Origin: Demequina activiva
GTDB lineage: Bacteria > Actinomycetota > Actinomycetes > Actinomycetales > Demequinaceae
Assembly: GCF_016862815.1 (NCBI RefSeq)
Contig: NZ_BONR01000002.1
Span: 434,001 to 498,000, forward strand
Reading direction: 5' to 3'
DNA length: 64,000 bases
This document shows positions 44,446-49,199 of the stretch, piece after piece. The notes below the pieces were generated by a model. It had not been told where the DNA came from, searched no databases, and was given only the letters and a program-made list of their open reading frames with translations. The position numbers and the translations under genes were made by a program. Every line of letters starts with the position of its first letter. The first letter of the stretch is position 1.

Positions 44446-45654
44446 TCAGACGAGTGCGCGCCGCTCCGCCACGGCCTCGGCGACACCGAGCCACGCCTGC
44501 GCGTGCCCGGAGTCGTCCGTGCCCGCGGCCAGAGAGAGCACGTTGGCGGCGACCCGCGCACGCAGCTCGCGCTCATCGTGGCGCTGCGCGAACGCACGAT
44601 AGATCCGCTCGGTCTCGCGCGGGACGCAGGTGTAGCCCGTGGCGTCGAGCTCGGGCAGCACGAGCAGATGCGCGATCATGCACGCGCAGTCGTCGATGGC
44701 GCGACCGGGGCCCAACGTGTCGAGATCGATGAGCGCCACGACGCGCGTGGGGTCCGTGGCGCTGTCGAGATAGAGGTTGGCCGGGTGCAGATCGCCATGG
44801 GTCGGCACGGGCAGCGTGGTCGGCACCACGTCCAGCACCGCGTCGATGCGTGACCTCAGAGCCGTCACGCGCGCGGCGTCGAGCCCATCGTCGATCGCCA
44901 TGGTCGCGTACTCGCCCACGCGGTCCGCGACGGCGGGGCGGGGCGACAGAGCCAACGCGTCGTGTGGCAACGAGTCCATGGCGGCAAGGATGGCCGCAGG
45001 ATCGATGCGGGCGGCATCGGAACCGTCGGGACGGTGCAGCGCCCGTGTCATGGGCACTCCGGAAGCCTCCTGCACCACCACGATGCCGTCGCCGGCATCG
45101 ACGGCGAGCGGAGCGAGCTCGCACATGCGGTGGCGCCGGAGCATCGCCTCGGCTCGCTCTGGTCTGACCACCTTGACATACCAGGTGCGACGCCCGTCCT
45201 CGGCCGTGGTCCGAGCACGCAGGACCGCCCTGCGCATGGGCCGTAGCACCAGCATGTCGAGCGACTCGATGGTGATGGTCCTGCCCGTGGCGGCGGACAG
45301 GCGCGGCGCGAGGTCCTCGGGGACGGACGCTGCCGCGAGGCCCGGCAGGTAGGGGTCCGCAGGGTGGCGCCAGACGTGCACCTCGCCCACCTCGGAGGAC
45401 AGCCGCACCGCCTTGCAGGCCTGACGCTGCTCGTCCGTCAGCGCGACGGTGCTTGCCACGAGGTAGATGCGCTCCCCGCCGGCGACCACGTCGAAGCCGG
45501 CGGAGGTCTCGGCTCCCGGGCGGGCGTTGACGGCGTCGAGGGTCCAGCTGTCGAGCGCGGTGTGAGAGGTGGCGAGGGCGGCCGCGAGTATGCCTTCTGC
45601 TTCAGGCCCCGTCAGCATCGTCGCCGCCGCGTTCTCCTTCGCCATAGCCAACAT
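44446..45654 (-). CDS. APH-like phosphotransferase (kinase fold)
   Basis: The ATG at 45654 (AGGTGG upstream) gives 402 residues; the frame to 46263 runs antisense through the ZIP gene and is not real. The C-terminal half has the aminoglycoside/choline kinase motifs VPTHGDLHPANLYLD (Brenner's catalytic Asp and Asn, about residues 298-312) and VVALIDLDTLGPGRAIDD (metal-binding Asp). The ATP-binding half has YVKVVRPERAEAMLRRHRM with the lysine, and IVVVQEASGVPMTRAL. The first 130 residues are an extra domain I cannot name. Substrate unknown; resistance is not implied. It is read toward thrS. Confidence 0.85.
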   Translation of the reverse strand: MLAMAKENAAATMLTGPEAEGILAAALATSHTALDSWTLDAVNARPGAETSAGFDVVAGGERIYLVASTVALTDEQRQACKAVRLSSEVGEVHVWRHPADPYLPGLAAASVPEDLAPRLSAATGRTITIESLDMLVLRPMRRAVLRARTTAEDGRRTWYVKVVRPERAEAMLRRHRMCELAPLAVDAGDGIVVVQEASGVPMTRALHRPDGSDAARIDPAAILAAMDSLPHDALALSPRPAVADRVGEYATMAIDDGLDAARVTALRSRIDAVLDVVPTTLPVPTHGDLHPANLYLDSATDPTRVVALIDLDTLGPGRAIDDCACMIAHLLVLPELDATGYTCVPRETERIYRAFAQRHDERELRARVAANVLSLAAGTDDSGHAQAWLGVAEAVAERRALV

Positions 45655-45817
45655 CACACCACCTACGACGCCGTTTCGTCGGATTCGTGCCTGTTCGTGC
45701 GCGGCGTGTCCCCTGCCCGCGCGCACCGGTTGCCGCCAGGAGCGACCGGGTGGAGGATGTGGCGGGACAGCACGCTCGCATCGCTGGGTCACGGCGACGG
45801 AGCGAGGGAGGGCGCGG

Positions 45818-46519
45818 ATGAGCGGACTCTGGGATGCCTTCGGCGTGGGCCTGCTGGCCCAGTCGTCGCTGCTGCTGGCCGGCGTCGTCGTGTGCTGGAT
45901 CAGGTTCTCGAGTCGCGTGGTGGGCCTGCTCGCCGGGTTCGGCGCTGGCGCGCTGATCGCGGCCATCGCGTTCGACCTGCTGCCCGAGGCGGGGACGCTG
46001 AGCGGGTGGCAGCTGACCCTCGGGATGCTCGCGGGTGTGGCGATCTTCCTCGCCGGCGACCGGATCGTCGAGAAGCGGTTCGGCGACCGCGGCGAGGGCG
46101 GCGCGATGGGGATCGTGGTGGGCTCGGTGGTCGACGGCGTTCCGGAATCGGTGATCATCGGCATACAGATCGCGAGCGGCAATCCTGTCGGCGCAGCGTT
46201 CATCGGTGCGGTCTGGGTGTCGAACGTCCCCCAGGCGATCGCTCCGTCAGCGGAGCTCGCCAAGAATGGCTGGAGCGCGTGGCGCCTGGGCCGACTGTGG
46301 GCGCTGGTGGTCCTGGCCTGCGGCGTCGCTGCTGCCGCGGGCTACGCAGTGACCGAGCTGACCGGGACGGCGACGGGAGCGTGGATGGCCGCGATCGCGG
46401 CGGGTGGCCTGCTCGCGATGCTCACGGATTCGCTCATCCCCTTCGCATACGAGCGCGGCAAGGACCTGGCCGGCGCGGCGACCGTGCTCGGGTTCTGCCT
46501 CGCGTTGGGTGGCTCCTGA
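45818..46519 (+). CDS. ZIP-family metal transporter
   Basis: A 233-residue membrane protein with about eight hydrophobic segments. The ATG at 45818 has GGGAGG upstream. Family features: AGFGAGALIAAIAFDLLPEA in an early helix and the central pore motif GSVVDGVPESVIIGI (about residues 107-121), where ZIP transporters have H/D-x-x-P-E-G. The first metal-binding residue is Asp and the Gly of PEG is Ser here, so metal choice may differ from zinc ZIPs. It is divergent from the kinase gene; the 163-base gap shows no clear promoter. Confidence 0.82.
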   Translation: MSGLWDAFGVGLLAQSSLLLAGVVVCWIRFSSRVVGLLAGFGAGALIAAIAFDLLPEAGTLSGWQLTLGMLAGVAIFLAGDRIVEKRFGDRGEGGAMGIVVGSVVDGVPESVIIGIQIASGNPVGAAFIGAVWVSNVPQAIAPSAELAKNGWSAWRLGRLWALVVLACGVAAAAGYAVTELTGTATGAWMAAIAAGGLLAMLTDSLIPFAYERGKDLAGAATVLGFCLALGGS

Positions 46520-46582: not shown

Positions 46583-46657
46583 TGGTGGGCGATACTGGGA
46601 TCGAACCAGTGACCTCTTCCGTGTGAAGGAAGCGCGCTACCACTACGCCAATCGCCC
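46583..46657 (-). tRNA. tRNA-Val (anticodon CAC)
   Basis: On the minus strand a 75-base cloverleaf: acceptor GGGCGAT/ATCGCCC, anticodon loop TTCACAC with anticodon CAC reading GUG, T-arm GGTTCGATCC, and an encoded CCA end. It differs from tRNA-Val(GAC) at 50581 at only four positions. Confidence 0.97.
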
Positions 46658-47047
46658 CGAGCGGGTTCCATAGTAGCGCCTCCAGAGCGGGCCGGTGGAC
46701 ACCCTGCACGACGGTGCAGCGGAAGATGACAGAAGTCTCATCCGCTGGTGTGTCAGCGGGTGTCGCACCGACGCCATGTCTGGCGATCCCCGAGCCAAGG
46801 CTGGCGGCAGGCGCCGGAGCCTGAGTTCGGTGCGGGCGGGGATCCTCGCAATCGTGATGGGCGAGACGGTCGAGCTCACCTCGACCCTGAGCGCGTCGCG
46901 CGCGGCAGGGTCGACGGTCCCTCCGTCGAGCTCGACGTCGGGTCCGAGGTCGTCCCGGCCGTCGCCCGAGTCCGCGATCGCGGCGCCAGCGCCGATCGCC
47001 ACGATGCCCAGCGCTCCGGTCACCATCCAGATGGTCTGCTTTCCCAT
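46643..47047 (-). CDS. Small secreted protein, uncertain C-terminus
   Basis: The start is well supported: ATG at 47047 with AGGAG five bases upstream. The product begins MGKQTIWMVTGALGIVAIGA then GAAIADSGDG, a clear Sec signal peptide or anchor, followed by an acidic region (DDLGPDVELDGGTVDPAARDALRVEVSS). After about residue 60 the composition turns Arg-rich and the frame runs 15 bases into tRNA-Val before a stop, for 134 residues in total. The second half may be a shifted frame, so the gene may be broken or the true end earlier. No family recognised. Confidence 0.5.
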   Translation of the reverse strand: MGKQTIWMVTGALGIVAIGAGAAIADSGDGRDDLGPDVELDGGTVDPAARDALRVEVSSTVSPITIARIPARTELRLRRLPPALARGSPDMASVRHPLTHQRMRLLSSSAAPSCRVSTGPLWRRYYGTRSGRLA

Positions 47048-47131
47048 GATCGTGCTCCTGTTCCTGTCCCGCGGTCGCGGGCTCGTGTGAACAAGACTGG
47101 GCGGCCCGCATGAAACCACGAGGAGAGTCCG

Positions 47132-48322
47132 ATGAGGGTCCTCTCATCGACTGGCGCGCACGGAAGCCTGGCTATCCACCCCGGCGCATGGCACCATTCG
47201 TCTGTGACCACCCTCGTGATCGGTCCCACCACACTTCGCGACACGGATGACGGTCGTGTGCGCGCGTCCAGCGTCATCGCCGGGCTGGACGAGCCCCTCG
47301 AGCTGTGGGTGGACCTGCACCCCTCGCTGCGCGACGCCGTACCGGACCGCGCTGACCCCTGGCTGCCCGCGACCGCCCTGCTCGCCTCGCGCCTGGGCGC
47401 CACCGTGCGAGCGGAGTCGCCCGTCACCGCACCGTTGGTTCGCTCGGCTCGCGGTGTCACTCAGCTGCTCAGCGAGTGGTTCCCCGCGGAGATGTCGCGC
47501 GTCGATGTCTCGGCGACGACCGCTGGGCGCGTGGCGCCCTGGCGGCGCCACCCCGGGAGCAGCGCGATGTGCTTCACCGGTGGCGTCGACTCGTTCTACT
47601 CGCTCCTGCGCGCGCAGGATTCTCCCGACTATCTGGTGAACGTCTCTGGGCTCGATGTCACCAGCCGCTGGCCCGAGATCGAGAAGGCGACTCGTCTGAG
47701 GCTTCTCCGCGTCGCGACGGACTTCGACGCGCGGCTCGTCACGCTGCGCTCGAACGTTCGCACCGTGATGCTCGATCACGGGTTGCGGTGGGGCGACCAT
47801 GCCCACGGATCGGTGCTCGCGGGGTTCGGCCATCTGCTCTCAGGGCGCCTGGGCACCTTCATGATCCCCGCCACTCACTCGAAGGCGAGCGTCCAGCCTT
47901 GGGGCTCGCACCCTCGCCTGGATCCGCAGTGGAGCAGCGACGCGCTTCGAGTGGTCCACCACGGCTTCGAGGCCTCACGGGTCGACAAGACCGCGGCCAT
48001 CGCGCGCGACCCCCGAGCCGTGGACTCCCTGCGGGTGTGCCTGCGCCACAACAGCGACGAGAACTGCGGCGAGTGCAGCAAGTGCCTGCGCACCATGGCC
48101 ACGCTGGCGTTCCTGGGGGAGCTCGACTCCACGAACCGCTTCCCGACCGACCTCACACCGTCGCTCTTCGAACCGATCACCGTGTCCAAGCAGCAGGACC
48201 TCAACCACTTGATCGCGGCGCGCGATCTGGGGCTGCGGACCCAGCGCCGGCCGGACATCGTCGAGGCGCTCGACGGCGTGATCGCCCGCAGCGAGGCACA
48301 GATTCACGCAGCCTCCCCGTGA
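47132..48322 (+). CDS. QueC-like PP-loop ATPase-family protein of unknown function
   Basis: A 396-residue protein with the PP-loop ATP pyrophosphatase motif FTGGVDSFYSLL (about residues 148-159) and, near 300-325, the zinc pattern C-x8-C-x2-C-x2-C (CLRHNSDENCGECSKC) placed as in the preQ0 synthase QueC. Around these are conserved-looking blocks HGSVLAGFGHLLSG, IPATHSKASVQPWGSHPRLDP and CLRTMATLAFLG. Its first 140 residues are not part of QueC. It resembles an uncharacterised actinobacterial family, sometimes found in surface polysaccharide loci. The ATG at 47132 has GAGGAG seven bases upstream; a GTG at 47204 lacks one. No queuosine genes are nearby, and it meets pabC 4 bases apart. Confidence 0.75.
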   Translation: MRVLSSTGAHGSLAIHPGAWHHSSVTTLVIGPTTLRDTDDGRVRASSVIAGLDEPLELWVDLHPSLRDAVPDRADPWLPATALLASRLGATVRAESPVTAPLVRSARGVTQLLSEWFPAEMSRVDVSATTAGRVAPWRRHPGSSAMCFTGGVDSFYSLLRAQDSPDYLVNVSGLDVTSRWPEIEKATRLRLLRVATDFDARLVTLRSNVRTVMLDHGLRWGDHAHGSVLAGFGHLLSGRLGTFMIPATHSKASVQPWGSHPRLDPQWSSDALRVVHHGFEASRVDKTAAIARDPRAVDSLRVCLRHNSDENCGECSKCLRTMATLAFLGELDSTNRFPTDLTPSLFEPITVSKQQDLNHLIAARDLGLRTQRRPDIVEALDGVIARSEAQIHAASP

Positions 48323-48326
48323 CGGA

Positions 48327-49199
48327 TCAGCGCCGATGCGGGACGGGCGGGTCCGCGTCCTTCTCGGCGGCGAGCTCGTAGACCGCACTGAGCTTGCGCA
48401 GCAGCGCTCCCGGCAGCAGCTCGGTGCCGTCGAGGCTCGATACGTGCTGAACGCCGCGCGTCGACGACGTCACGGCGAGGTGAGCGCGGCCCTCGATCGC
48501 CTCGTCGAGGACCGCCATGGTGAGCTCCCCGGGAGCCGTGACGCGGATCGGGAGGGCGGCGCGTACGGCCCATTCGAGCGCCAGGCCCCGGGTGATGCCG
48601 GCCAGGCAGCCGGATGCCAGCGGCGGGGTGAGAATCTCGCCGTCGCGCTCGACGAACACGTTGGTCGCGGTGCCCTCGCACAGATTGCCGTAGGTGTTGG
48701 CGAGGATGGCCTCGTCCGCGCCCTTCGAACGCGCGTACTCGACCATGACGACGTTCTCGGCGTAGGACGTCGACTTCACGCCGGCCAGCGCCGAGCGCTC
48801 GTTGCGCTTCCAGGGAGCGCGCACCGCGTGGCAGACGCGTGGCCGCGGGGCAGCGACGCCCGTCACGATCAGCGTCGCGGGACCGCTGCCACGGGCGGAG
48901 CCCATGGGGCCCTCACCCGACGTGACCGTCACGCGGATACGCGTGAGCGCGCCCTCGCCGGCCTTCAGGACCGCCGCGACGGCGTCGCGGACCTGCTCGA
49001 CCTCCGGAGCCGCCAGGCCGATCCGATCCGCCGAGTACTCGAGCCGAGCAAGATGGCGCGAGAGGGCGAACGGCACGCCGTCACGAACCGCGATGGTCTC
49101 GAAGATCCCGTCTCCCACGGTGAGCCCATGATCCGTCGCCGAGACCACCGGCTCGCCCGGCTCCCGGAGCGCGCCCCCCGCCCACACGATCGGATTCAT
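48327..49199 (-). CDS. pabC: Aminodeoxychorismate lyase (class IV aminotransferase fold)
   Basis: PabC turns aminodeoxychorismate into p-aminobenzoate for folate. The 290-residue product begins MNPIVWAGGALREPGEPVVSATDHGLTVGDGIFET, the class IV pattern, with the PLP lysine in SALAGVKSTSYAENVVM and a phosphate-binding end (VTSSTRGVQHVSSLDG). Its ATG overlaps the pabB stop (ATGA), which supports PabC over a branched-chain aminotransferase. pabA is not in the window. Confidence 0.88.
   Translation of the reverse strand: MNPIVWAGGALREPGEPVVSATDHGLTVGDGIFETIAVRDGVPFALSRHLARLEYSADRIGLAAPEVEQVRDAVAAVLKAGEGALTRIRVTVTSGEGPMGSARGSGPATLIVTGVAAPRPRVCHAVRAPWKRNERSALAGVKSTSYAENVVMVEYARSKGADEAILANTYGNLCEGTATNVFVERDGEILTPPLASGCLAGITRGLALEWAVRAALPIRVTAPGELTMAVLDEAIEGRAHLAVTSSTRGVQHVSSLDGTELLPGALLRKLSAVYELAAEKDADPPVPHRR

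Follow-up and report, generated by a model that had tools for sequence, protein, structure and literature searches.

The protein encoded by the QueC/QatC-like gene of the window, meaning here the whole 64,000-nucleotide stretch of the Demequina activiva genome that was analysed, is tentatively read as a glycan amide-type ATP pyrophosphatase of a family standing structurally closest to QatC, a reading to which we give a probability of roughly 0.4; confidence in it would be higher for those members of the family that are paired with a polysaccharide pyruvyl transferase than for the window protein itself. As judged from its modeled Rossmann-like PP-loop fold and intact ATP-site residues, the protein is a member of the N-type ATP pyrophosphatase superfamily, and its sequence suggests that it is probably a working ATP-using enzyme. 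The chemistry of N-type ATP pyrophosphatases (QueC, NASAT, and Cap9) is established: a carboxylate or amide oxygen is adenylated, and a nitrogen nucleophile then displaces AMP.

An earlier note on this DNA had described a QueC-like PP-loop protein, and this description holds, the ORF being exact and the PP-loop and the zinc pattern starting at C303 both being in place (Table 1). The ORF is best taken, on comparative grounds, as a real gene rather than an open frame owed to high GC content, because homologs occur in three congeners (31–37% identity), in plasmids of many phyla (Azospirillum, cyanobacteria, Priestia, haloarchaea, and others), and in the GTDB loci, and because key residues are invariant. 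Throughout the 74 aligned sequences these are G151, D153, C303, N311, C312, C315, K317, and C318, with R283, K286, D264, H276, and W116 conserved in more than 90%. By inference, judged by eye, the GSHPRLD motif occupies the position of the YPDC substrate motif of QueC. The ATG at 47132 is preceded by a fair ribosome-binding site (gaggag), and the first ~24 residues of the 396-residue ORF fall outside the conserved fold; a GTG at 47204, coinciding with the beginning of that fold, is a likely or alternative start.

Table 1 Features of the PP-loop gene, its product, and the borders of its site (window coordinates).
Feature	Coordinates	Strand	Evidence
QueC/QatC-like PP-loop protein, 396 aa	47132..48322, stop included	+	ORF and translation; homologs in 92 GTDB loci and 28 plasmid records
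N-terminal domain (residues 25-142) of four strands followed by helices with two more strands	47204..47557	+	AlphaFold2 model, pLDDT 95; aligns with QatC N-terminal extension; A85 and W116 conserved
PP-loop TGGVDS, residues 149-154, ATP pyrophosphatase motif	47576..47593	+	G151 and D153 invariant in 74/74
GSHPRLD, residues 258-264, family motif	47903..47923	+	D264 96%, P261 85%, H260 78% in family
R283-x2-K286, conserved basic pair	47978..47989	+	R 95%, K 97% in 74 sequences
Zinc site C303-x8-C312-G-x-C315-x-K-C318	48038..48085	+	Four Cys, N311, and K317 invariant
tRNA-Val(CAC), bordering on one side the variable site of the PP-loop gene	46583..46657	-	
Aminotransferase class IV (pabC-like), other border of the site	48327..49199	-	Pfam Aminotran_4, 4e-47; order kept in Demequinaceae bacterium Ww84

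A single-sequence structure prediction of the window protein gave a useless model (pLDDT 40), and the AlphaFold2 model built from the 74-sequence alignment, from which nine plasmid-derived rows were excluded, reached a pLDDT of 95.1 and a pTM of 0.93. The structural comparison with QueC, QatC, and Cap9 that had been suggested for this protein ranked QatC first: the best VIA-align match was QatC (PDB 9y01; Z 14.5, rmsd 4.8, 294 aligned residues, model residues 1–359), followed by QueC (2pg3, Z 12.4 over 183 residues; 3bl5, Z 12.1), Cap9 (9nto, Z 10.6 over 167 residues), and LarE (Z 9.4), the last three matching the core only, as do the ArtA nitrile synthetase and MnmA, likewise at lower Z than QatC. 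The core accounts for only ~214 residues of the model, so that 80 or more of the QatC-aligned residues must fall in the N-terminal domain or the C-terminal helices. Foldseek returned no match to the model at E ≤ 0.001, so that the QatC match rests on VIA-align, and because the rmsd is also high we speak of a shared architecture of the modeled protein and QatC and not of proof of close kinship. The first 140 residues had been described as an extra and novel domain; extra they are relative to QueC, yet their novelty does not stand, since they align with the QatC extension, and the N-terminal domain (~115 residues of the fold), which does not resemble QueC but is conserved in the family, is predicted to be QatC-like and not new as a fold. 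At the sequence level, a PDB search by family profile found nothing beyond marginal matches, headed by QatC (E 0.16), and a profile comparison against a small set of aligned QueC sequences matched just 54 columns, those surrounding the PP-loop.

No name is given to the window protein by Pfam, NCBIfam, or PADLOC at their cut-offs, PF06508 and TIGR00364 included. Nineteen of the 74 family members match PF06508, weakly (best E 4.7e-4), and the family-wide profile scan gave only weak QueC and Asn synthase matches. DUF6395 (PF19932) matches residues ~287–322 of the window protein below threshold (E 4e-4; 20.8 bits against a curated cut-off of 25). The relatives form a widespread family, present in many phyla, that is without a name in the databases searched.

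With QueC (7-cyano-7-deazaguanine synthase) the window protein shares the core fold, the QueC-type SGGxDS loop, in which T replaces S at the first position, and the identical C-x8-C-x2-C-x2-C zinc spacing, features that could mark a deazaguanine enzyme, either a preQ0 synthase or a CDG-using ligase. Such an assignment is very unlikely. Unlike QueC, the window protein has the extra N-terminal domain, and by the motif signatures of QueC, Cap9, and QatC reported previously (PMC13329287) the QueC motifs Y-x-Q-x-H-x2-E and VPxRN are absent from all 84 family sequences, while Y-x-D-C is missing from the window protein and present in only 2/84. The earlier observation that no other deazaguanine gene is nearby can be strengthened, for QueD, TGT, and QueC (over threshold) were found nowhere in the host genome, which is 99.7% complete, although positive controls were recovered in each search. 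QueD is also lacking in 16 of the 37 genomes with a family member and present in the remainder. The known route to the QueC substrate therefore seems to be closed to the host, and the family is not dependent on it.

The likeness to QatC, a component of the qatABCD anti-phage defence system (PDB 9y01 and 9y02), lies in a QueC-type core, an extra N-terminal domain, and C-terminal helices arranged in the same order, with the PP-loop near residue 150 in both proteins. This top structural match, N-terminal extension included, together with the patchy presence of the gene in the genus and its tRNA-bordered variable site, would be in keeping with a QatC-like protein modifier, one that attaches a small molecule to the N-terminus of a partner protein encoded at another site, or alters that N-terminus in some other way, possibly for defence. 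We regard this as distinctly unlikely. The two proteins are only ~11–14% identical and differ in their zinc pattern, C-x19-CGxC in QatC; the extended form C-x19-CGxC-x2-R occurs in none of the 84 family sequences, and among the QatC motifs searched in the window protein HP is present and five others are absent. PADLOC gave no match for the protein and none consistent for the family, and just one of 74 members weakly matches the NCBIfam QatC model. The flanks are housekeeping genes, those scanned containing no QatA, QatB, QatD, or CD-NTase gene, and no match was found in 50,697 phage records. Cap9 of type IV CBASS shares the core fold and zinc site, but is ~185 residues long and retains the QueC substrate motifs (PMC13329287), whereas the window protein has 396 residues, is without Y/FxQ and YxDC, and lacks the Cap9 motif variant. 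The hint of an anti-phage role through Qat or type IV CBASS was therefore not borne out. A phage origin of the gene was likewise rejected, the phage records being without a match and only 4 IMG/VR contigs giving one.

The proposed link to glycans comes from the neighbourhoods of the relatives, in which gene calling relied on a simple measure of codon usage and the nearest genes were scanned with Pfam. Among 228 near neighbours, PS_pyruv_trans is the Pfam family met most often (19), with glycosyltransferases, flippases, and ATPgrasp_ST next. With a home-made profile, seeded from annotated neighbours and with all weaker or odd matches that were rechecked confirmed by Pfam, a pyruvyl transferase was found in 26 of 85 loci and less than 400 bp from the PP-loop gene in 20. 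As the host genomes carry ~1.4 PS_pyruv_trans copies each in ~4 Mb, a hand calculation gives ~0.1 of the 85 loci expected by chance. The linked genes lie nearly always on the same strand, often with gaps below 30 bp, and occur in both gene orders, including isolated two-gene pairs in Azospirillum and, between truA and FMN reductase, in Rhodococcus tibetensis; at least 16 changes of this linkage are placed on the tree. In a Thiomargarita bin (L033:9872-12133), the PP-loop and polysaccharide pyruvyl transferase domains are fused in one ORF of 753 residues. A second PP-loop copy adjoins this fusion on the opposite strand, and a suspected second fusion, in L029, proved to be an over-long ORF. The previously noted occurrence of related proteins in polysaccharide loci is in this way confirmed, the relatives lying often in loci for surface polysaccharides, and the search for conserved neighbours in related genomes, which had also been suggested, yielded the result that bears most on function, the recurrent pyruvyl transferase linkage and the one fusion. 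No pyruvyl transferase lies within 400 bp in the other 65 loci, and some Tomitella and other actinobacterial members are near lipid or unrelated genes.

A glycan context would also suit an amidine synthase that activates the N-acetyl amide of a sugar for addition of ammonia, as is thought for WbpG/NASAT (N-acetyl sugar amidotransferase), by convergent or very distant use of a PP-loop. NASAT is likewise a PP-loop enzyme with zinc in polysaccharide synthesis (PMC10607449), and members of the present family are found in glycan loci; however, the zinc cysteines precede the PP-loop in NASAT and follow it in the window protein, the upstream tetracysteine is absent in 84/84 sequences, and no match to the NASAT family was found in Pfam or NCBIfam, making this an unlikely reading. 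Rather unlikely as well is an enzyme of a small specialised metabolite and not of a glycan, converting a free acid by amide, lactam, nitrile, or thio chemistry. ArtA, LarE, and MnmA do match the core, two Gloeothece members lie beside non-ribosomal peptide synthetases and some actinobacterial ones near lipid genes, and the window gene stands alone; against it, those three matches are confined to the core at lower Z, and the commonest linkage across phyla is with glycan genes. On the Gloeothece plasmids (L010 and L011), the pyruvyl transferase/PP-loop pair and glycosyltransferases adjoin large non-ribosomal peptide synthetase genes and may form with them one glycosylated peptide cluster.

Two to four full-length PP-loop copies are held by 16 of 83 loci (L020, L023, L035, L077, L008, and 11 others), with ATP and zinc motifs intact or near-intact in every copy and truncated further copies in L077; this retention of both motifs suggests distinct substrates rather than redundancy. 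A 2,633-bp circular plasmid record of Priestia megaterium (NZ_CP130479.1, L151) consists almost only of a PP-loop gene and a fragment of a second copy; it may be an assembly artefact or a circle formed by recombination of tandem copies like the ones present in L008. In Brachybacterium halotolerans (L018:10298-11392), and likewise in L093:9800-11120, the PP-loop gene is split across two ORFs, likely by a frameshift or sequencing error.

The locus of the window gene itself is of another kind. Its flanks comprise the tRNA-Val(CAC), a small exported-type ORF, pabC, pabB, a ZIP-like transporter, and ThrRS, with no glycan gene among those scanned. In 25 of 30 sampled Demequina loci, tRNA-Val lies 27–351 bp from pabC (664 bp in one more) without a PP-loop gene; the gap is filled by the PP-loop gene in the window genome and in Ww84, and by a two-component system and small repeat-rich proteins in three close relatives. 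Small exported-type proteins of this kind start with MNKRTxWTVTGALGIIAIG, are rich in SPVSPKSP-like repeats, and have no Pfam match; the window carries a single copy (46643-47119, minus strand), and several diverged copies stand beside the two-component system in the relatives' gap (L131, L132, and L133). Farther out, an APH-type phosphotransferase ORF (44446-46263, minus strand) overlaps the ZIP-like transporter ORF on the opposite strand (45569-46519, plus strand), and its true start is probably further downstream. In the tree, the window protein groups with that of Ww84 and no other (100/99), and this long-stemmed pair stands apart from the actinobacterial clade containing D. phytophila, whose own PP-loop gene shares its locus with a flippase, a pyruvyl transferase, and a chain-length gene. 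The two paired proteins are 34% identical with all catalytic residues in common, and because these are kept at such divergence their function appears from the sequences to be under selection, although this function may have diverged from what the glycan-linked members do. The window genome has two PS_pyruv_trans genes, both away from the PP-loop gene; its stand-alone pyruvyl transferase was considered as a partner and rejected, being absent from Ww84 and not tracking the PP-loop gene across the genus.

In the reaction that we propose for the glycan amide-type enzymes, ATP would be bound via TGGVDS, probably with R283 and K286, the zinc site serving a structural role. A carboxylate (or amide oxygen) of a glycan, of its precursor, or of a substituent on it would be adenylated by the PP-loop protein, with release of PPi, and ammonia or an amine would then displace AMP to yield an amide-type group. 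Substrate selection may be performed by the N-terminal domain together with the HPxLD region. For many relatives, the neighbouring polysaccharide pyruvyl transferase probably makes or shares this substrate, a candidate being the carboxylate that pyruvylation leaves behind. The best fit appears to be amidation, either of a uronic acid or of a pyruvyl ketal carboxylate, and amidine or nitrile formation would fit less well. A glycan is proposed as the substrate because of the gene linkage in the relatives, and transfer of this function to the window gene is weaker because the gene, on a branch shared only with Ww84, sits at a tRNA-Val site and has no glycan gene beside it. The predicted fold, the intact ATP and zinc sites, the lack of the deazaguanine genes, and the genomic linkage in relatives are direct results of the analysis; the chemistry, the substrate, and the sharing by the window protein of the job of its glycan-linked relatives are inferred. 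The wider proposition, that QatC-shaped ATP ligases work with, and can fuse to, polysaccharide pyruvyl transferases, producing amides, nitriles, or amidines from acidic substituents of glycans, and that QatC shares their ancestry, is possible but doubtful.

The fold and the motif set are already known; what may be regarded as new are the family, its QatC-like N-terminal domain outside defence, and its link to the pyruvyl transferase, none of which was found in the open-access papers searched. A survey of the QueC scaffold from 2026 was confined to members of PF06508, a profile below which the family of the window protein falls. The family would add to the QueC/QatC fold a branch that is associated with glycans of the cell surface and does not depend on deazaguanine. 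With the PP-loop protein and the pyruvyl transferase, which one organism carries as a fusion, there is a concrete module of two enzymes in which to look for a new glycan modification, and the family supplies non-defence relatives with which the origin of the QatC architecture and the nature of the QatC reaction can be addressed.
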